From Demequina salsinemoris (lineage in GTDB: Bacteria; Actinomycetota; Actinomycetes; Actinomycetales; Demequinaceae), in the NCBI RefSeq assembly GCF_000974805.1, contig NZ_BBQZ01000001.1:186001-250000 (forward strand): a stretch of DNA of 64,000 bases, in the 5' to 3' direction. The position numbers and the translations under genes were made by a program. Positions 23,020-51,611 of the stretch are shown here, piece after piece; position 1 is the stretch's first letter; each line of letters begins with the position of its first letter. The notes under the pieces are model-generated. The model had not been told where the DNA came from and searched no databases. It saw nothing but the letters and a program-made list of their open reading frames with translations.

Positions 23020-24563
23020 TGTCCGTCCTCACTGGAATCTCCGGGCTCGCGGCGTACAACGCCGACGACCTCAGGAACGCCTACTGCGGCGTGACGGACG
23101 CCGCGGACGTCACCGACGCGCAGCAGGTGTGCCTCGACAACTGGGGGACCCTCGCGGGCGACCCGGTGTGGCTCGTCATCGTCAAGGCCGTCCTGATCCT
23201 GGTCTTCCTGCTCACGTCCGTGCTGTTCGCGGTGTGGTTCGAGCGCCGCGTGATCGGTCGCCTCCAGCAGCGCCCCGGACCCAACATGCACGGACCGTTC
23301 GGCCTGCTCCAGTCCGTGATGGACGCGATGAAGCTCCTGTTCAAGGAGGACATCACCGTCCGCGCCTCGGAGAAGGTGCTGTACATCCTGGCGCCGATGA
23401 TCTCGGTGTTCTCCGCGCTCCTGATCTTCGCGGTGATCCCGTTCGGCCCGGCCACGCACATCCCCGGCACGAACATCGTCACGCCCGTCCAGCTCACCGA
23501 CTTCCCCGTCGCGGTGCTGTACATCCTCGCGTGCGCCGCGCTCGGCGTGTACGGCATCGTGCTCGGCGGCTGGGCCTCGGGCTCGATCTACCCGCTGATG
23601 GGCGCCGTCCGCTCGACCGCGCAGATCATCTCCTACGAGCTCGCGATGGGCCTGTCGCTCGTCACGGTCTTCATGCTGTCGGGCTCGATGAGCACGTCGC
23701 AGATCGTCGACGCGCAGACCGACCGCTGGTGGATCTGGCCGCTGCTGCCCGCGTTCATCCTGTACGTGATCTCGATGATCGGTGAGACGAACCGTCTGCC
23801 GTTCGACCTCCCCGAGGCCGAGGGCGAGCTGGTCGCGGGCTTCATGACCGAGTACTCGTCCATGAAGTTCGCCTGGTACTTCCTCGCGGAGTACATGAAC
23901 ATGATCAACGTCTCGGCCGTCGCCTCGGTGCTGTTCCTTGGCGGTTGGCGCGCTCCGTGGCCCGCCTCGTGGGCCGGCGCGGACATGCTGAACTCCGGGA
24001 TCTTCCCGCCCATCTGGCTGATCATCAAGATTTGGCTGCTCATGTTCGTCTTCGTGTGGGTGCGCGGCACGCTGCTGCGCTTCCGCTACGACCAGTTCAT
24101 GAAGTTCGGCTGGAAGGTCCTCATCCCCGTGGGCCTCGGCTGGCTGGTGTTCTTCGCCGTCGGCCGCCAGTTCATGTCGTACTACAACCGCGACCTGAAC
24201 CTGTACGACGCGGTGGCCTGGCTGGTCGCGATCCTCCTGGTCTACGCGACCTGGGGCTTCATCAAGGACTCGCGCACCGAGAAGGAGCGCAAGGAGCTCG
24301 AGGCGGCCGAGGCCGCCGCGGTCGACGAGCCCGAGGAGCCGTTCGACGCGTTCGCCGGCGGCTACCCCGTGCCCCCGATGCCCGGCCAGTCCTTGCCGCC
24401 GTCGCCGCGCTCGGGACGGACCGTGGAGGCCGCGATCAAGCTCGCGACGCCGCCCGAGGGCGTCGCCGTCGCCGACATGGACGATGCGGACCAGGACGAT
24501 GCGGTGGCCGAGGACGACGCCTCCGATTCAGACGCGAAGACCGAGAAGGGAGGCGACGCATGA
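23019..24563 (+). CDS. nuoH: NADH-quinone oxidoreductase subunit H
   Basis: 514 residues, eight-helix membrane subunit at the quinone entrance. Conserved: [17 protein letters not shown] near residue 75, [16 protein letters not shown], and [21 protein letters not shown]. Beyond the core (about residue 420) runs a roughly 90-residue cytoplasmic Pro- and Asp-rich tail, common in actinobacteria; here it contains two tandem GGACGATGCG copies. The start shares one base with the nuoG stop (TGATG). Confidence 0.96.
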
Positions 24564-31292: not shown

Positions 31293-32309
31293 ATGCCAGT
31301 CCCACTTCAGACCTCCGCCCTTCAGGAGTCTCTGACGCCACGGCTCGAGCTCATCGAGGAGCGGCTGCGCGACGCGGTCGCGCAGTCCGACCGCCTCGCG
31401 GACGCGACCTCGCGCCACCTCGTCGACGCGGGGGGCAAGCGGCTGCGGCCGATGCTCGTGCTGCTCGCGGCTCAGCTCGGCGACGGCTCGCGTCCGGAGG
31501 TGCTCGACGCCGCCGTGGTGTGCGAGCTCACGCACCTCGCGACGCTCTATCACGACGACGTCATGGACTCGGCGCCCACCCGGCGCGGGGTGACGTCGGC
31601 GCATGAGGTGTGGGGCAACTCGGTCGCGATCCTCACGGGCGATCTGCTCTTCGCGCGCGCGTCGATCGTCGTCGCGGGACTCGGCCCCGAGGCGGTGCGG
31701 CTCCAGGCCGCGACGTTCGAGCGGCTGTGCCTCGGCCAGCTGCACGAGACCGTCGGCCCCGATGAGGGCGAGGACCCCGTCGAGCACTACATCCAGGTGC
31801 TCGCCGACAAGACCGGATCGCTCGTCGCGATGTCCGCGCGGTTCGGGGCTCGGTTCGCCGGGTGCGCGCCCGCGATCGTCACGCAGGTCACGGAGTATGG
31901 CGAGCTCGCGGGCGTCGCCTTCCAGCTCGCCGACGACGTGCTCGACATCCGCTCCGACACCGAGGTGTCCGGGAAGACTCCCGGCACCGACCTGCGCGAG
32001 GGCGTCGACACGATGCCGACGCTGCTGCTCAGGCGCCGCGTCGCCGCGGGGGTCGTGGAGGGCGTCACCGCTGAGGACCTCGCCGCCGACGTGGCGCTGC
32101 TCGCGGACATCGACGGGGATCTCACCTCCGATGAGGCGCTCGCCTCGGTGGTCGCGCGCCTGCGCGTGCACCCCGTGGTCGACGAGACCGCGCGGCTCGC
32201 GCACGAGTGGGCCTCGCGCGCCAAGGCCGCGATCGACGGCCTGCCCGAGGGCGAGGTCAAGGACGCGCTGATCGCGTTCGCCGACGCTCTGGTCGCCCGC
32301 GCGGCCTGA
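31293..32309 (+). CDS. Long-chain polyprenyl diphosphate synthase
   Basis: 338 residues, trans-prenyltransferase. The first Asp-rich motif is LYHDDVMD (about residue 89) with the following TRRG; the second is FQLADDVLD (about 210); GGKRLRP near residue 48 binds isopentenyl diphosphate. It makes the menaquinone side chain, chain length not predictable from this view (heptaprenyl to nonaprenyl). Position next to nuoN and the men genes supports that role. Start ATG 31293 is probably leaderless. Confidence 0.92.
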   Translation: MPVPLQTSALQESLTPRLELIEERLRDAVAQSDRLADATSRHLVDAGGKRLRPMLVLLAAQLGDGSRPEVLDAAVVCELTHLATLYHDDVMDSAPTRRGVTSAHEVWGNSVAILTGDLLFARASIVVAGLGPEAVRLQAATFERLCLGQLHETVGPDEGEDPVEHYIQVLADKTGSLVAMSARFGARFAGCAPAIVTQVTEYGELAGVAFQLADDVLDIRSDTEVSGKTPGTDLREGVDTMPTLLLRRRVAAGVVEGVTAEDLAADVALLADIDGDLTSDEALASVVARLRVHPVVDETARLAHEWASRAKAAIDGLPEGEVKDALIAFADALVARAA

Positions 32310-32397
32310 CGTCCCGCTCCCGGCCGTCCGCACCCGGGCAACTGGCGCATCGTCCCCGCCCCATGTGCTTCGCATCTTCCTCGCACCGCTCCGTCCG

Positions 32398-32495
32398 GTC
32401 AGTGTGAACCAATCTGAGTTCCGACACCCCGGCGACGCGCCTCGCCGGGGTGTCGACACACTGGGGTGTCGCCGCCGAGATTGGTTCAAACTGTC
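32398..32495. repeat. 98-bp palindromic element, copy 1
   Basis: The 18-bp ends 32398-32415 and 32478-32495 are inverted repeats with two mismatches (core GTGAACCAATCT). Inside, GACACCCCGGCGA pairs perfectly with TCGCCGGGGTGTC to give a 13-bp hairpin. A homologous element in the same orientation lies at 34771-34867, so the two flank the sigma/membrane-protein operon. It has no ORF and no transposase is near: MITE-like or a structured intergenic repeat. Confidence 0.75.
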
Positions 32496-32511
32496 CGGCC
32501 GTGAAGGAGGA

Positions 32512-32551
32512 CCCAACGTTTTCGCCCCCGGCACCGTGTGACAGGGTAAGA
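32512..32551 (+). promoter_or_regulatory. Sigma-operon promoter, copy 3
   Basis: CCCAAC (32512-32517), CGTG (32535-32538) and GTAAGA (32546-32551) repeat the 28-base spacing seen at 2120 and 4322. It begins 17 bases after the palindromic element ends. Confidence 0.6.
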
Positions 32552-32570
32552 ACCGCACGAAGGGGACAAC

Positions 32571-33104
32571 ATGGGGGACTGGCAGGCGCTCGTCGAGCGA
32601 CTGATGCGCGAACGCGGGCCACGGCTCACCGCGTACGCCGCGATGCTCGTGGGCCGCGACGGCGACGCCGAGGACCTGGTGCACGACGCGATCGTCAAGG
32701 TGTTCTCACGCGGGCGCTCGCTCAGCGACATCGATCACGCCGAGGCCTACGTCCGCAGGACGATGCCGACGCTCGCGATCGACAGGGCCCGCCACCGCAC
32801 GGCCGGAGGCCGCGCGACGGTGCGTTCGTTCCAAAGGGACGATGCGCCGGCCGACCTGGACGCCGGGCTCGACGTCCGCCGCGCGCTGAGGACGTTGTCC
32901 CCCCGTGAGCAGGCGTGCGTGGCCATGCGCTACTACGACGATCTGACCGTTCCGCAGATCGCCGACGCCCTGCATCTCGCGCAGGGCTCGGTCAAGCGGT
33001 ACCTGCATGACGCGACGGCCCGGCTGGCAACGCAGCTGGGCGTCGACGACCCGGGCCCTGAGTCCGAAGTGGTGGAGCTGACGACGGCAAGGAGGCGGCG
33101 ATGA
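32571..33104 (+). CDS. SigE-family RNA polymerase sigma factor, third locus
   Basis: 177 residues, regions 2 and 4 only. Region 2: DAEDLVHDAIVKVFSRGRSL; region 4: LSPREQACVAMRYYDDLTVPQIADAL and QGSVKRYLHDATARL. It is more distant from the two factors at 2179 and 4381 than those are from each other, especially in region 4, yet keeps the same promoter and the same ATGA coupling to a membrane partner. ATG 32571 follows GAAGGGGAC. One GGACGATGCG copy is in the linker between regions. Confidence 0.85.
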   Translation: MGDWQALVERLMRERGPRLTAYAAMLVGRDGDAEDLVHDAIVKVFSRGRSLSDIDHAEAYVRRTMPTLAIDRARHRTAGGRATVRSFQRDDAPADLDAGLDVRRALRTLSPREQACVAMRYYDDLTVPQIADALHLAQGSVKRYLHDATARLATQLGVDDPGPESEVVELTTARRRR

Positions 33105-34600
33105 GCGACCTCGGAGACATGATCAAGGGCGCGGGAGATGCGCACGCCGCGGCGCTGGGCGCCCGCGGTGACGAGGCAGCGACGACGCGCATGGTGTCAT
33201 CCATCCGGCGTCGCCGGGTGGTCCGGGCGAGCGCCACAGGGCTGGTCGCGGCAGCGGCCGTCGGCGCTGTCGGGATGACCGCGATGGCGGCGCTCGGGCC
33301 GGACACCTCGGGCCTCGCCCCGGCGGGGGACGGCGTCAATGCGTGGTGCGACCTGGACTCGTACCCGTTGCCGAACGTGGACGCGATTCCCGACGCCGGG
33401 TTCCAGGGGCGGCTGTATGCGGACTTCGCCTCGGATACCTACATGTACAGGACCGTCGACGGTGAGCTGCGCCAGCTCGAGCAGGACGACGACGGAGTGT
33501 GGCGAGACCCGGAGACGGGGAATGCCTTCGATGAGCTGCAGATGTACGAGGACGGTCCGTTCGCCGCCTGGGGCCTTGAGCGGGCCGTGTTCGACGTCAC
33601 CGACAGCAACGGATTCACCTGGGTGGAGGACCCCGCGGACCTCTACTACGAGTGGACCACGACCGTCCCGGCCACTGCACCTGACGAGGTGAGCATCGGC
33701 CAGCTGACTGCAGCGCACGAGACGGTGATCTTCCACGGCGGGACCGGCATCTCCGAGAGCCTCGGCGGTGAGGGGGCGGTCATCGAGCAGCTCGTGACAA
33801 GGACGGATGGGTCTGAGGAGGTCGCCAGGGTCTTGATCGGCGAGATCCCGCAGGACGTGGAGGACCTGACCGACCTTGCGAGCGTGACCACGCGGGTTAC
33901 CACCGCCGAGGGGGAGACCGCGGAGGTGGTGAGCACCTACGACGCCTCCCAGACCTACGAGGCGAAGTGCGGCGAGAACACGTCGGAGTGGCAGGACGAG
34001 ATGGCGGCTCAGGACGCGGAGGCGTCCGCCTCTGCCGAGGCCGATCGCGAGCAGCTGTACCTCGACGGTCCCGAGGTCGAGGTCTTCGCGTGCGAGGAGC
34101 CTCTCGACCCGGAGCTGGAGGCCGAGCCGGTGTGGGAGGAGCGCCGCAGCGGCATCTACGACGACGAGGAGGAGGGCATGCAGATCGACTACGGCGACGG
34201 CGCTACCGTGCTCGCGCTCCCCAACTACGGCGAGACGTTCGACGATTACGAGCAGTACGACGGCTACACGAGCAAGGGGTGGGGCGGCGCGTACGGGTAT
34301 GACCAGGAGACCGGTGAACCGACGACCGGCTACTTGGACTACCTGCTCGAGGTCTTCGTCGACCAGGACGGCGTGATCGTCGGCTACTCCGACCCGTCGT
34401 CGGACGACGACACGTTCAACGTGTGGGGCGGCTCGGGCACCACGCCGCAGCAGGTGCACGTCTTCGACTCGGCCGAGCGCATCGCATGCGGCGACGCGAC
34501 CGACGAGGAGCTCGCCGCGGCGACCCCGGTGCTGCTCACCGGCTACGGCGCTAGCGTCGACACCATGGAATGGGCCTGGTACGAGGTGATCCAGGACTGA
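33101..34600 (+). CDS. Single-pass membrane partner of sigma factor, third locus
   Basis: 499 residues. The inner segment (1-35) ends in RRRR at 36-39, one helix follows at about 44-66, and the large acidic outer domain is rich in Tyr, Asp and Glu with two Cys (VNAWCDLD, YEAKCGEN) plus ACGD near the end that could form disulfides. The plan matches the proteins at 2724 and 4929, but the outer domain shows no recognisable similarity to them and lacks their WHRPxGDVEI motif. ATGA overlap with the sigma gene. Role as membrane regulator of the sigma factor is inferred. Confidence 0.72.
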   Translation: MSDLGDMIKGAGDAHAAALGARGDEAATTRMVSSIRRRRVVRASATGLVAAAAVGAVGMTAMAALGPDTSGLAPAGDGVNAWCDLDSYPLPNVDAIPDAGFQGRLYADFASDTYMYRTVDGELRQLEQDDDGVWRDPETGNAFDELQMYEDGPFAAWGLERAVFDVTDSNGFTWVEDPADLYYEWTTTVPATAPDEVSIGQLTAAHETVIFHGGTGISESLGGEGAVIEQLVTRTDGSEEVARVLIGEIPQDVEDLTDLASVTTRVTTAEGETAEVVSTYDASQTYEAKCGENTSEWQDEMAAQDAEASASAEADREQLYLDGPEVEVFACEEPLDPELEAEPVWEERRSGIYDDEEEGMQIDYGDGATVLALPNYGETFDDYEQYDGYTSKGWGGAYGYDQETGEPTTGYLDYLLEVFVDQDGVIVGYSDPSSDDDTFNVWGGSGTTPQQVHVFDSAERIACGDATDEELAAATPVLLTGYGASVDTMEWAWYEVIQD

Positions 34601-34653
34601 CCTGGCTCAGGACCGATCGGCCCGAGAACCAGCCGGCGGGGGCACGGCTGACA

Positions 34654-34704
34654 CGGCCCGGACGATGCGGCACCGTTGAGGTGACGGCCGCATCGTCCGG
34701 GCCG
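34654..34704 (+). terminator. Terminator built from two inverted GGACGATGCG copies
   Basis: The 18-base arms 34654-34671 and 34687-34704 are perfect reverse complements and each contains one copy of the 10-mer (34660 on +, 34689 on -). The hairpin starts 54 bases after the sigma-partner stop. A further inverted copy lies at 34725. The arrangement is like the uptake-sequence terminators of Neisseria. Confidence 0.7.
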
Positions 34705-34770
34705 CGCGGCGTGAAGGCACGTGGCGCATCGTCCCGACCCCGTCCCGTCGCCCCGCCCCCGCCTGCGGCC

Positions 34771-34867
34771 GACACTTTGAACCAATCTGAGTTCCGCCAC
34801 CCCGGTGACCCGCCGAGGTGGACTGCGACACGCTGGGGTGTCGAGGCCGAGATTGGTTCACACTGTC
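34771..34867. repeat. 97-bp palindromic element, copy 2
   Basis: The ends 34771-34788 and 34850-34867 are 18-bp inverted repeats with two mismatches. The sequence aligns with the copy at 32398 along most of its length, but the inner hairpin is degraded here (CACCCCGGTGA against GAGGTGG). Confidence 0.75.
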
Positions 34868-34906
34868 AGCGCGGGCGGGTGCGCTGCGGTGGCAGCAGGG
34901 CGAGCG

Positions 34907-35944
34907 CTACACCGGTTCGCCCGCCTCGACCTCGACCTCGCGCGGGTCGCGCCGAGATGAGCGCGAGGCTCGCACGCTGTCCACCGTCAGCACCACGAGC
35001 GCGATCCACACGAGCACGAACCCGACCCAGCGCCCGGCCGACATCTCCTCGCCGAACACCCACACGGCGAGCATGAACATGATGGTCGGCGCGATGTATT
35101 GGAGCAGGCCGACGACGTTCAGGGGGAGCCGTTGCGCGGCGCCCGAGAACAGCAGCAGCGCGCCCACGGTGAACACGCCCGTCGAGGCGAGCAGCAGATC
35201 ATGCGAGAGCCCGAGCCCGGAGGACCCGCGCACACCGAACGTCGCCTCGCCGTGCGCCGACATCCACCACACGGCGGCCGCTGCGAACGGGGCGAGCACG
35301 AGCGTCTCGACCGTGAGCCCGGTGATCGGATCGACCGAGACGCGCTTCTTGATGAGCCCGTACAGCCCGAACGAGAACGCGAGCACGAGCGAGATCCACG
35401 GCAGGCCGCCGAGCTCGACCCCGATGACGACGACGGCCACGGTCGCGATGAGCACCGCCACGATCTGGAGCCGCCGCAGCCGCTCGCCGAGCACGAGCAC
35501 CCCGAGCGCGACGAGCACGAGCGGGTTGATGTAGTACCCGAGCGACGCGTGCGCCACGCGGTCGGTCACGACCGAGAAGACGTAGGTGAGCCAGTTCGTC
35601 ACGATCAGTGCGGCGGCGAGCGCGAGCGTCCCGAGCGTGCGCAGGTCGGTCAGCGCGGCGCGCAGGCGCCCCCACCCACGCACGGCGGTCACGAGCACGA
35701 GGCACACCGCGACCGACCACAGCACGCGCTGCGCGGTGATCTCGACGGCCGAGGCTGGCTCGAGCGCGTGCATGAGGATCGGGAACAGCCCCCACACGAG
35801 GTAGGCGCCGAGCCCGAGGCCGAGTCCCATGCGGTCGAGCGCGCCTGAACGCGAGGACGACGCCAGGCCGGGGGACGATGCGCGAGCCACGGACGATGCG
35901 GCGGTCACCGGCGACGACGAGGGTGGTGGGGCGGGTTCGGTCAC
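34907..35944 (-). CDS. rarD: RarD/EamA family transporter
   Basis: 345 residues, ten transmembrane helices, DMT superfamily. RarD hallmarks: YLVWGLFPILMHAL, ITAQRVLWS, VTNWLTYVFSVVTDRVAHASLGYYINPL and LQYIAPTIMFMLAV. Substrate of these permeases is unknown. I take GTG 35944 because CACACT lies six bases before it (leaderless spacing); ATG 35830 would give a 307-residue protein and removes a 38-residue Ala/Ser/Pro-rich N terminus that carries two inverted GGACGATGCG copies (35873, 35891), so that alternative remains open. Confidence 0.85.
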   Translation of the reverse strand: MTEPAPPPSSSPVTAASSVARASSPGLASSSRSGALDRMGLGLGLGAYLVWGLFPILMHALEPASAVEITAQRVLWSVAVCLVLVTAVRGWGRLRAALTDLRTLGTLALAAALIVTNWLTYVFSVVTDRVAHASLGYYINPLVLVALGVLVLGERLRRLQIVAVLIATVAVVVIGVELGGLPWISLVLAFSFGLYGLIKKRVSVDPITGLTVETLVLAPFAAAAVWWMSAHGEATFGVRGSSGLGLSHDLLLASTGVFTVGALLLFSGAAQRLPLNVVGLLQYIAPTIMFMLAVWVFGEEMSAGRWVGFVLVWIALVVLTVDSVRASRSSRRDPREVEVEAGEPV

Positions 35945-35950
35945 CCGGCC

Positions 35951-35956
35951 AGTGTG
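35951..35956 (-). promoter_or_regulatory. -10 box of rarD
   Basis: CACACT on the minus strand, six bases before GTG 35944. Moderate match to nAnnnT only. Confidence 0.35.
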
Positions 35957-35993
35957 AGCCAGGCGCACGGTGCCACGCCAGCCGCTGGTGGCG

Positions 35994-36524
35994 TCAGCCG
36001 CGCACGGCGAGCGCGCGCAGGAACCCCGCGTGGAAGCGGTCCTCCTCATTCGCGCCGTACGCCTCGGTCACGACCTCGAGCAGTGTCGAGAACGCCTCCT
36101 CGACCTCGCCCGAGGTGTGCAGTGAGATCGCGTCGAAGACCTTCTGGGACGGCGCTCCGGGGAAGCGGCGACGCACCTCGGCGATGATCTGCGCGGCCTC
36201 ATCCGCCTCGCCGAGAGCGTGGAGCACCGACGAGTAGCGCAGCAGGCATCGGCGCAGTAGCTCTCCGACGGGCCCCGCCGCCAAAGCGTCCTGGTAGCGG
36301 AGTCGCGCGGTGGGCAGGTCGCCGTTCAACGCGTGCGCGCACGCGAGCTCGTAGAGCACCTCGGGGACGCCGGGATGCTGAGAGTCGAGCTCCTCGAGGG
36401 CGCGCAGCGTCGGGCCGAGATCGTCGAGGTCGCGGCCCGCGAGGAGGGCGTCGAGGCGCTCGTCGATCGGGGAGGTGCCGGGGCGTCGTCGGATGGGGCG
36501 GCGGCGGGGCAGAGCGTTCGTCAC
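35994..36524 (-). CDS. TPR_5-type tetratricopeptide protein
   Basis: 176 residues, soluble. It contains repeated helical pairs such as PEVLYELACAHALNGDLPTARLRYQDAL and LLRYSSVLHALGEADEAAQII, matching the TPR_5 tetratricopeptide family. GTG 36524 overlaps the stop of the HlyD-like gene (GTGA), so it is the last gene of the polysaccharide operon. Homologs of similar size occur as accessory proteins; a scaffolding role for the synthase complex is possible but unproven. Confidence 0.72.
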   Translation of the reverse strand: MTNALPRRRPIRRRPGTSPIDERLDALLAGRDLDDLGPTLRALEELDSQHPGVPEVLYELACAHALNGDLPTARLRYQDALAAGPVGELLRRCLLRYSSVLHALGEADEAAQIIAEVRRRFPGAPSQKVFDAISLHTSGEVEEAFSTLLEVVTEAYGANEEDRFHAGFLRALAVRG

Positions 36525-49649: not shown

Positions 49650-51611
49650 ATGGAGGAAGCGCGCCCCGATTCGGGTGCCTACGACGTCGAAGCGATGCTC
49701 CGCGGGCTGGACCGCATCCTCGCGGATCAGGACGGTCCCTCGGCGGTCCCGTACCTGGACGATGCGCTGGCCGGGGCCCGCGCGGCGGGGGACGGGGGCG
49801 CTGTCCTCACGGTGCTCAACGAGATGATGGGGCTGCACCGCTCGCTCGGCGCGCATGATCGGTCGCGGCAGGCGGCCGACGACGCGCTCGCGCTCGTCGA
49901 CCGGCTCGGCCTGAAGGGCTCCGAGGCCCACGCCACGACGCTCATCAACGTCGCGACCGCGCGTCGCGCGGCGGGGGACCTGGACGATGCTCGGGTCGCC
50001 TACGCCGAGGCGCTCACGGTCGCCGAGCGGACGATGCCCGCGGGGGACCGCCGCCTCGCCGCCCTCCACAACAACCTGTCGATGCTGCACAGCGAGGCCG
50101 GCGACGCCCAGGGGGCGTACGACGAGCTGACCGCCGCCCTGAGCATCGTCGAGGGCGCCTCGACCGACCCAGGCCGCGACCTCGACGTCGCCGGTACGCT
50201 CACCAACCTCTCGCTCGTGTGCCATGACCTGGGCCGCGGCGAGGAGGCCGAGGCGCTCGCTCGGCGCTCGCTCGCGATCTTCCGTGCGGGAGGGCATGAC
50301 GCGAACCCGCACCTCGCGGCCGCGCTCGCGGGCCTTGCCGAGGTGTGCTTCCGCTCGGGGCGCGCGGCCGACGCCGCAGACCTCTACCGCGAAGCGCTCG
50401 TGATCGTCGACGCCAACTACGGCCCGCAGAGCGACCAGCACGCGGTCACCGCGGAGAACCTCGCGCAGGCGGAGGAGGTCGCGGCCGCGTCCCCCGGCCC
50501 GAGGCTGCTCGGCGACGCGGGCGCCGAGTCCGTTCCCGCATCGTCCGTTCCCGCATCGTCCACACCCGACGAGCCCGAGCCTGGTCCGCCCGCGCTGACC
50601 GTGCCGCGCATGACGGGTCTCGCGCTGTCGCGCGCGTTCTGGGAGGAGCACGGCCGGCCGATGCTCGAGCGCTACCCCGAGCACCGCGGGCGCATCGCGG
50701 CGGGTCTCGTGGGTCACGGCTCCGAGTGCTACGGCTTCGACGACGACCTGTCGCGCGACCACGACTTCGGCCCCGGCTTCTGCCTGTGGCTCACCGAGGC
50801 AGACCATGCGGAGATCGGGTCCCGACTGCAGGCCGACTACGAGGCGCTGCCTTCGACGTTCCTTGGCTTCGGGCCGCGCGTCGAGACGACGCGCGCGCAG
50901 GGCGAGGGGCGGCGCGTGGGCGTGTTCGAGATCGCCGACTTCTTCCAGGGGATCACCGGGCTGCCGTCCGCGCCGCCCGCCGATCAGCCGCACCTGTGGG
51001 TCACGCTCGAGGAGGCGACGCTCGCCGCCGCGACCAACGGTGAGGTCTTCGCCGACCCGTACGGAGCCTTCAGCTCCGTCCGCGGCGCCTTCACGCGGAT
51101 GCCGGACGATGCGCGCCTGGCCAGGATCGGTCAGCGCCTGGGGATGATGGCGCAGGCTGGGCAGTACAACGTGCCGCGCATGCTCGCGCGCGGCGACGGC
51201 GAGGCCGCGTGGCTGTCGGTCGCGGAGTTCGTCAAGGCCGCGGCGTCGCTCGTGTTCCTGCTCAATCGGCCCACCGCTGTCGGGTACCTGCCGTACTACA
51301 AGTGGCAGGGCGCGGCTATGCGCGCGCTTGCGGCCCGGCCCGTCTCGCGGCTCCCTCGAGTGCATGCGCGGCTGACCGACGCGCAGCGGCTTGCCTCCGC
51401 GGCGTGCTTCGGGGGCGCCGGCTTCGGCGAGGGCGGCGCCGGCGCCGGGCCCGCGCGCGAGGCGCTCGCCGAGGCGATCGAGGACGTGTGCGCGCAGGTC
51501 GTGACCGAGCTGCGGATGCAGCGGCTGAGCGTCGCGGACTCGACGTTCCTCGAGGCGCATCGGGACCAGGTTCGCGCCCGCATCGGAGACCCGTGGCTGA
51601 GGGCGCTGTGA
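49650..51611 (+). CDS. Tetratricopeptide / DUF4037 fusion protein
   Basis: 653 residues. The N-terminal part (about 1-280) consists of TPR helix pairs (HNNLSMLHSEAGDAQGAYDEL, TLTNLSLVCHDLGRGEEAEAL). A Pro/Ser linker holds two tandem ASS-coding copies of CGCATCGTCC (50537, 50552). From about 315 the DUF4037 domain begins; GSECYGFDDDLSRDHDFGPGF looks like a nucleotidyltransferase metal site. ATG 49650 is chosen. Function unknown; possible toxin- or sensor-type NTase. The DUF4125 gene follows, and the two families are often adjacent. Confidence 0.78.
   Translation: MEEARPDSGAYDVEAMLRGLDRILADQDGPSAVPYLDDALAGARAAGDGGAVLTVLNEMMGLHRSLGAHDRSRQAADDALALVDRLGLKGSEAHATTLINVATARRAAGDLDDARVAYAEALTVAERTMPAGDRRLAALHNNLSMLHSEAGDAQGAYDELTAALSIVEGASTDPGRDLDVAGTLTNLSLVCHDLGRGEEAEALARRSLAIFRAGGHDANPHLAAALAGLAEVCFRSGRAADAADLYREALVIVDANYGPQSDQHAVTAENLAQAEEVAAASPGPRLLGDAGAESVPASSVPASSTPDEPEPGPPALTVPRMTGLALSRAFWEEHGRPMLERYPEHRGRIAAGLVGHGSECYGFDDDLSRDHDFGPGFCLWLTEADHAEIGSRLQADYEALPSTFLGFGPRVETTRAQGEGRRVGVFEIADFFQGITGLPSAPPADQPHLWVTLEEATLAAATNGEVFADPYGAFSSVRGAFTRMPDDARLARIGQRLGMMAQAGQYNVPRMLARGDGEAAWLSVAEFVKAAASLVFLLNRPTAVGYLPYYKWQGAAMRALAARPVSRLPRVHARLTDAQRLASAACFGGAGFGEGGAGAGPAREALAEAIEDVCAQVVTELRMQRLSVADSTFLEAHRDQVRARIGDPWLRAL

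Follow-up and report, generated by a model that had tools for sequence, protein, structure and literature searches.

Two copies of the 10-mer GGACGATGCG face each other in a strong stem-loop shortly after a stop codon in Demequina salsinemoris, which raises the questions of what this word is and whether its inverted pairs double as transcription terminators, as inverted uptake sequences do in Neisseria and Haemophilus. We examined the locus within a window of 64,000 nucleotides (the whole stretch analysed; contig NZ_BBQZ01000001.1, positions 186,001 to 250,000), in the genome to which it belongs and in other genomes of the genus. G-codes denote the Demequina genomes compared, G000 being the genome of the window. 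Our main reading, to which we assign a probability of about 0.6, is that GGACGATGCG represents, in this genome, one dialect of a DUS-like word of Demequina, and that the hairpin is a 3'-end element carrying two words, which is an exception and not the rule.

The hairpin and its neighbours are arranged as follows.
32571 to 33104, plus strand: ECF-type sigma-70 family factor, 177 aa.
33101 to 34600, plus strand: gene for a 499-aa protein, 5' of the hairpin and directly 3' of the ECF-type sigma factor gene.
34654 to 34671, plus strand: left arm of the stem, CGGCCCGGACGATGCGGC, holding GGACGATGCG at 34660-34669.
34672 to 34686, no strand: hairpin loop of 15 bases, whose sequence has diverged from that of the G004 ortholog of the hairpin.
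34687 to 34704, minus strand: right arm of the stem, with GGACGATGCG on the minus strand at 34689-34698.
34725 to 34734, minus strand: third GGACGATGCG copy, oriented as the right arm, at a spacing of 36 that is also found in G004.
34907 to 35908, minus strand: EamA-family transporter gene converging on the hairpin; its start codon is uncertain and the open frame extends to 36049.
35873 to 35900, plus strand: direct pair of GGACGATGCG at the EamA gene start, 18 bases start to start.

Direct reading of the sequence confirmed that the two arms are exact reverse complements over 18 bp, each with one GGACGATGCG, and that a third copy lies at 34725, as an earlier note on this DNA had stated. The hairpin is located between convergent genes, the 499-aa gene on the plus strand and the EamA gene on the minus strand; the stop codon of the former ends at 34600 and the stem starts 53 bases later. 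The 499-aa protein, which had no Pfam match at E 0.001, is possibly a partner of the adjoining ECF sigma factor. With loops of 3-40 bases allowed, the 18-bp stem is the longest perfect inverted repeat in the window, followed by two of 14 and 14, and in eight first-order Markov simulations of the window the longest arms measured 12-16 in five, while three contained none of at least 12. The RNA fold of 34640-34720 has an energy of -55.6 kcal/mol (z -6.9), a value reached by 0 of 200 shuffles. Thus, a G+C-rich stem-loop soon after a stop codon, one feature of an intrinsic terminator, is present. A U tract was absent, no T-rich tail being found 3' of the stem (CGCGCGGC), and a scan of 34400-35100 for consensus terminators and promoters found none. 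Rfam gave two matches at 32000-36200, both far under the gathering scores, and a known RNA family was therefore dismissed. Another dispersed element, ~80 bp long and bounded by the inverted ends GAACCAATCT...AGATTGGTTC, has copies at 32406-32487 and 34779-34859; five copies lie in G000:C20:186001-470000, all between called genes and three between convergent genes, and a related stretch was found 3' of the EamA gene in G012.

A match to the EamA gene was present in 42 of the 44 genus genomes, and its locus was available for 30. The nearest relative by EamA protein is G004 (88% identity), whose locus holds three GGACGATGCG copies, all exact and in the same order and spacings (29, 36). Its hairpin has a diverged loop and an outer stem that is built differently, with a two-base bulge, and the best 60-nt fold energies in the window's genome and G004 are equal (-46.1 and -46.2). 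A pair 18 apart also stands beside the EamA gene start of G004, where the alignment sets an indel in one copy. In G057, G001, G012 and G009, none of the four word variants described below occurred in the stretch examined at the locus, and the best 60-nt folds were weaker (-24.5 to -36.2). The word-bearing hairpin at this locus is common to one relative only, G004.

The word itself is strongly over-represented. The window contains 34 copies against 0.8 expected, a number reached in 0 of 100 shuffles, and the 3.21-Mb genome contains 1,403 copies (713 and 690 by strand) against 4 of the reversed control, so that the excess is present on both strands, as expected of an uptake sequence. Genes were called with a home-made codon-usage script in 464 kb of the genome, where 146 of 195 copies lie in genes and 49 outside called genes; 25% of the copies thus fall in the 11.4% of DNA outside called genes. 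Between convergent genes there are 21 copies in 12.5 kb (1.68 per kb), between tandem genes 24 in 24.0 kb, 12 of which run with the genes, and between divergent genes 4 in 16.2 kb (0.25 per kb). Among the in-gene copies, 78 of the 145 placed ones read xxG GAC GAT GCG, and the frames used are mostly preferred ones. Neighbouring copies share an orientation in 44 of 75 and 47 of 100 cases in the same 464 kb. Around single copies the sequence is conserved, with a C preceding the word by three bases and G.GG.CG following it. Five species, representing three dialects, show the 3' flank clearly (G000 and G004 with GGACGATGCG, G024 and G051 with GGCCGATGCC, G048 with GGACGATGCC), and a sixth shows it more weakly (G045, with GGCCGATGCG); a synonymous control, GGACGACGCG, has part of the flank, at codon-periodic positions. 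In the five longest word-free stretches of the 464 kb, translations inspected by eye revealed ordinary genes and no mobile elements, and the longest stretch resembled a ribosomal protein operon, which therefore gives no support for depletion of the word in foreign DNA.

Related words are found across the genus. Variants were first spotted by 10-mer enrichment in ~20-kb samples of relatives, and four of them, GG[A/C]CGATGC[G/C], were then counted in the whole genomes of 44 Demequina, where reversed controls gave 0-28 per strand. GGACGATGCG has 711-1,564 copies in 15 of the 44 genomes, GGCCGATGCG 667-1,203 in eight, GGCCGATGCC 651-1,118 in five, and GGACGATGCC 611 in one (G048). At least one variant reaches 600 copies or more in 27 of the 44 genomes, with two variants each above 600 in G015 and G042, and 17 of the 44 are below 600. 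One of the latter, G009, has a clear different variant, GCCCGACGCTGTGG, and weaker enrichments were seen in G003 (GCCGACGC), G057 (GATGCCGA) and G018 (GCCGATGC), all in samples of 44-68 kb; no enriched variant was seen by eye in samples from G001 and G012. On a midpoint-rooted EamA protein tree covering 30 genomes, in which 14 of 27 inner branches are well supported and onto which dialects were placed by eye, the dialects mostly follow clades. A single clade unites six of the eight GGCCGATGCG genomes; of the other two, G042 lies among GGCCGATGCC genomes and G015 is absent from the tree. G048 with its GGACGATGCC is nested among the members of a GGACGATGCG clade, and the tree distributes its seven GGACGATGCG genomes over up to three places, the placement of G022 not being settled by it. 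G057, G001, G012 and G009 group with the window's genome and G004, and they have 33-123 copies of the word. Demequina therefore has dialects among related species, another property of uptake sequences. Outside the genus, 14 other families of the order were sampled with one genome apiece, and these genomes contained 12-37 copies. A scan of a genome collection for close direct pairs of the word returned, among the matches listed, at least 13 Demequina and at least 89 non-Demequina stretches. The matches listed also include five contigs of the Chloroflexi assembly THP_Bin_29 (L081, L095, L102, L110, L127), which may represent a second lineage with a related word.

Alignment to G004 covered 251 of 284 kb at 86.8% identity. 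Of 92 aligned copies, 44 are exact, eight have one change, 25 have more changes and 15 carry indels; 17 others were unaligned. The word flanks are more diverged (~0.77 identity by position) than the aligned region overall, and for this reason we took 2,211 same-frame flanking 10-mers as the control, of which 433 are exact and 475 have one change. The ratio of exact to one-change sites is higher for the word (44:8 versus 433:475, P 1e-7), which indicates that a copy tends either to stay intact or to disappear. The excess of exact copies is modest when random 10-mers from anywhere in the aligned region serve as the comparison, at 34 of 75 versus 35% in coding DNA and 10 of 17 versus 34% between genes. 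The word is thus maintained as a unit in permissive regions, as an uptake sequence would be, although modestly so over random 10-mers. The neisserial DUS likewise sit in more diverged DNA, according to the portion of PMC2397512 consulted.

The genes of a type IV pilus and of ComEA/ComEC, which an uptake sequence calls for, are present. A PilB-like T2SSE ATPase was strongly matched (E 1e-94 or better) in all 44 genus genomes and ComEC in 43, the miss being an 85%-complete genome. ComEC is in two pieces in G009, G042 and G048, which may reflect frameshifts or assembly errors; G009 still has a variant word. The gene row here encodes PilB, PilT and PilC, a prepilin peptidase, three small proteins that resemble pilins and one large PilX-like protein, together with three proteins named PilM-N-O by gene order; Pfam supported the ATPase, two pilins and the peptidase. 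ComEA, a helix-hairpin-helix protein, lies before ComEC in the window's genome, the one genome in which it was examined. Homologues of PilB, PilT, PilC and the first pilin occurred in all 19 operons compared. A ComP-type receptor would be expected to be a basic pilin. The four pilins of the operon here are acidic (predicted pI 4.1-4.3), and therefore no ComP-like receptor was identified among the operon pilins; basic pilins occur in G017 and G009. The pilins of the window's genome are closer to those of G017 and G022 than to those of G004. No pattern linking dialect and pilins was seen by eye in the type IV operons of 19 genomes, in several of which the gene caller missed pilins. Pilus and ComEC genes also occur where no variant is abundant, for example in G001 and G012, and gene content is therefore non-discriminating.

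Close pairs of the word were defined genome-wide by gaps of 2-30 bases, pairs closer than 2 falling outside the pattern. The genome contains 10 convergent, 11 divergent and 111 direct pairs (49 + 62), against ~4.4, 4.4 and 8.9 expected with uniform placing. Gaps of at most 10 bases were counted by hand in 59 of the 100 direct pairs that were listed out of the 111, in 2 of the 10 convergent and in 5 of the 11 divergent pairs. Four of the convergent pairs are found between convergent genes, where one of them overlaps the end of a gene, two between tandem genes, two between divergent genes and two in genes, and 6 of the 10 are within 60 bp after a stop; the stems are 10-13 bp long in nine and reach 18 bp only at 34654-34704. 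Of the divergent pairs, seven are in genes, three between convergent genes near a stop and one between divergent genes. In the unselected 464 kb, direct pairs number 13, with seven inside genes and six in intergenic DNA. Nine of 12 direct clusters that we picked lie in 3' flanks, a biased proportion because most were chosen for three or more copies. Samples of six other genomes gave eight direct, four divergent and one convergent pair, the last from G004, whose sample includes the orthologous hairpin. Two further direct pairs lie in the window.
24479 to 24503, plus strand: direct pair of GGACGATGCG, 15 apart.
50537 to 50561, minus strand: direct pair of GGACGATGCG, 15 apart.
A tandem array of six GGACGATGCG copies with an 18-base period was observed between convergent genes at G000:C19:536734-536833, and arrays of 3-4 copies occur elsewhere in the genome.

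We also examined the relation from the side of the hairpins. In the 464 kb, 50 of 218 3' flanks carry a hairpin with perfect arms of at least 10 bases, against 0 after shuffling. There are 42 distinct strong 3' hairpins, eight with a T-rich tail and 34 without. The whole word lies in an arm of 2 of these 42 (0.36 expected, P about 0.05) and its 9-base core in 3 of 42. A word wholly inside a perfect arm forms an inverted pair by necessity, and therefore pairs alone are no evidence of selection for them. Strong hairpins are no commoner in word-bearing 3' flanks than in those without the word (9 of 34 versus 41 of 184, P 0.66), and intergenic 70-mers fold no better with the word (48; -27.6) than without it (169; -26.6; P 0.47). 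With the word in 2 of 42 hairpins and no excess in its flanks, terminator use of the word is therefore occasional at most. Within 10 nt, N. meningitidis Z2491 has 0 direct, 226 convergent and 5 divergent pairs and H. influenzae 1, 50 and 25, H. ducreyi being less biased (2, 6 and 8), in the counts taken from PMC1852404. The same source, whose definition of terminators differs from ours, places DUS in 54-57% of high-confidence terminators of Neisseria and gives 16-29% for the Pasteurellaceae. Terminator pairing is usual and not functionally required, one DUS sufficing for transformation, as stated in the part of PMC2397512 consulted.

Two alternatives concern the hairpin. That inverted word pairs regularly act as terminators, the situation known from Neisseria, would account for the hairpin at 34654-34704, for the larger share of convergent than divergent pairs within 60 bp of a stop (6/10 versus 3/11) and, as a weak point, for the excess of whole words in hairpin arms. 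The balance of pair types is nevertheless the reverse of that in N. meningitidis Z2491, the other nine convergent-pair stems are short, and neither hairpin frequency nor folding is raised by the word, so that we regard such a class as quite improbable. The earlier note had proposed that the inverted pairs double as terminators as in Neisseria and Haemophilus; with 111 direct pairs against 10 convergent and 11 divergent, inverted pairs as the rule are rejected, and an enrichment of inverted pairs used as terminators, which is a further mark of uptake sequences, was not found. The genome-wide search that it had called for did yield nine more convergent pairs, five of which have a stop codon no more than 60 bp before them, but divergent pairs are equally common (three of 11 within 60 bp of a stop) and direct pairs about ten times commoner. 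Alternatively, the hairpin could be a palindrome without a role, fortuitous or left by an inverted duplication. Its occurrence in a single relative and the missing U tract fit this idea, whereas two observations make it improbable: the hairpin is retained in G004 at equal energy, where the loop has diverged and the outer stem is constructed in another way, and strong 3' hairpins lacking a T-rich tail are common in this genome (34 of the 42 distinct hairpins). On sequence and folding grounds, the 34654-34704 stem is probably a real 3'-end element without a U tract, and it would probably serve as a bidirectional terminator or as an mRNA 3'-end stabiliser. The earlier claim of a terminator is supported in part, by the strong stem, which is kept in G004, and not by a T-rich tail or a consensus terminator.

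Two others concern the word. GGACGATGCG might have no part in uptake and be an abundant chromosomal motif of another kind, such as a HIP1-like word, a nucleoid or chromosome-organising site or a recombination hot spot. Abundance by itself fits HIP1-like motifs, and the pilus and ComEC genes are present in low-copy species too. However, HIP1 of cyanobacteria, a short word that is very frequent both inside and outside coding DNA, is a palindrome, which GGACGATGCG is not, the dialects in related species resemble those of DUS, and there is no strand bias genome-wide (713/690) or among neighbours (44/75, 47/100). Chi, KOPS and AIMS-type sites are strand-biased, and a strand-biased chromosome signal is rejected on these same counts. 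We therefore consider a non-uptake motif possible, though rather unlikely. A spread of the word as a small mobile or tandem repeat would explain the arrays with a 15-18 base period and up to six copies, and in four direct pairs one copy lies at an indel relative to G004. Most copies in the 464 kb are single, the conserved flank is short, and 10-base insertions would break the preferred frames in which most of the 146 genic copies (of 195) stand; this origin thus seems very improbable.

The preferred reading remains a DUS-like word. The suggestion that the 10-mer is uptake-like agrees with its abundance, its presence on both strands, its dialects and the pilus and ComEA/ComEC genes, and from this anatomy and from comparison with known systems we infer that GGACGATGCG has an uptake function and a receptor. 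Word-bearing DNA would be preferred by a DNA receptor that sits on the cell surface and belongs to the type IV pilus/ComEA/ComEC pathway, and repeated uptake and recombination would spread the word and keep it in permissive sites. The probable 3'-end hairpin between convergent genes incorporates two copies, a double use that would be the exception. We are somewhat inclined to view the word as an independently evolved, dialect-bearing uptake sequence of Gram-positive-type cells, with tandem close copies and with recognition by a receptor that is not a ComP-like basic pilin.

To our knowledge, uptake sequences are known only from Neisseriaceae and Pasteurellaceae, and the present word, if the reading is true, would represent an uptake-sequence lineage outside both. 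The matches listed from the open-licence literature (titles and abstract openings; most subscription papers lie outside it) reported no uptake-type word for Demequina or other Actinobacteria, and among those listed for the bare GGACGATGCG the titles dealt with aptamers, small RNAs and further topics unconnected with uptake. Because Demequina includes several dialects as well as sequenced species that lack them, the genus would offer a comparative test of why such words evolve. Moreover, the rare terminator use here separates the uptake role from the terminator role, which are entangled in Neisseria.

Among known systems, HIP1 is like the present word in its abundance in coding and non-coding DNA; HIP1 is a palindrome, whereas the present word is not one and has dialects. 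Intrinsic terminators without a U tract exist in high-G+C actinobacteria, and the hairpin resembles them in its strong G+C stem after a stop and its place between convergent genes, termination at it being putative. The USS of the Pasteurellaceae, as described in the part of Kingsford et al. (2007, PMC1852404) consulted, are similar in number, at ~1,400 copies per genome, and in the one-sided conserved flank of the core; they differ in that 16-29% of the terminators carry USS, against 2 of 42 hairpins under a different hairpin definition here, and the flank here is G+C-rich. Compared with the DUS of the Neisseriaceae, the host here is actinobacterial, the sequence is different, the operon has no basic pilin and the uptake is putative. 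The likeness, as far as the part of Frye et al. (2013, PMC3630211) consulted goes, lies in a short, dense, non-palindromic word on both strands, in dialects that differ at few positions, and in the accompanying type IV pilus and ComEA/ComEC genes.
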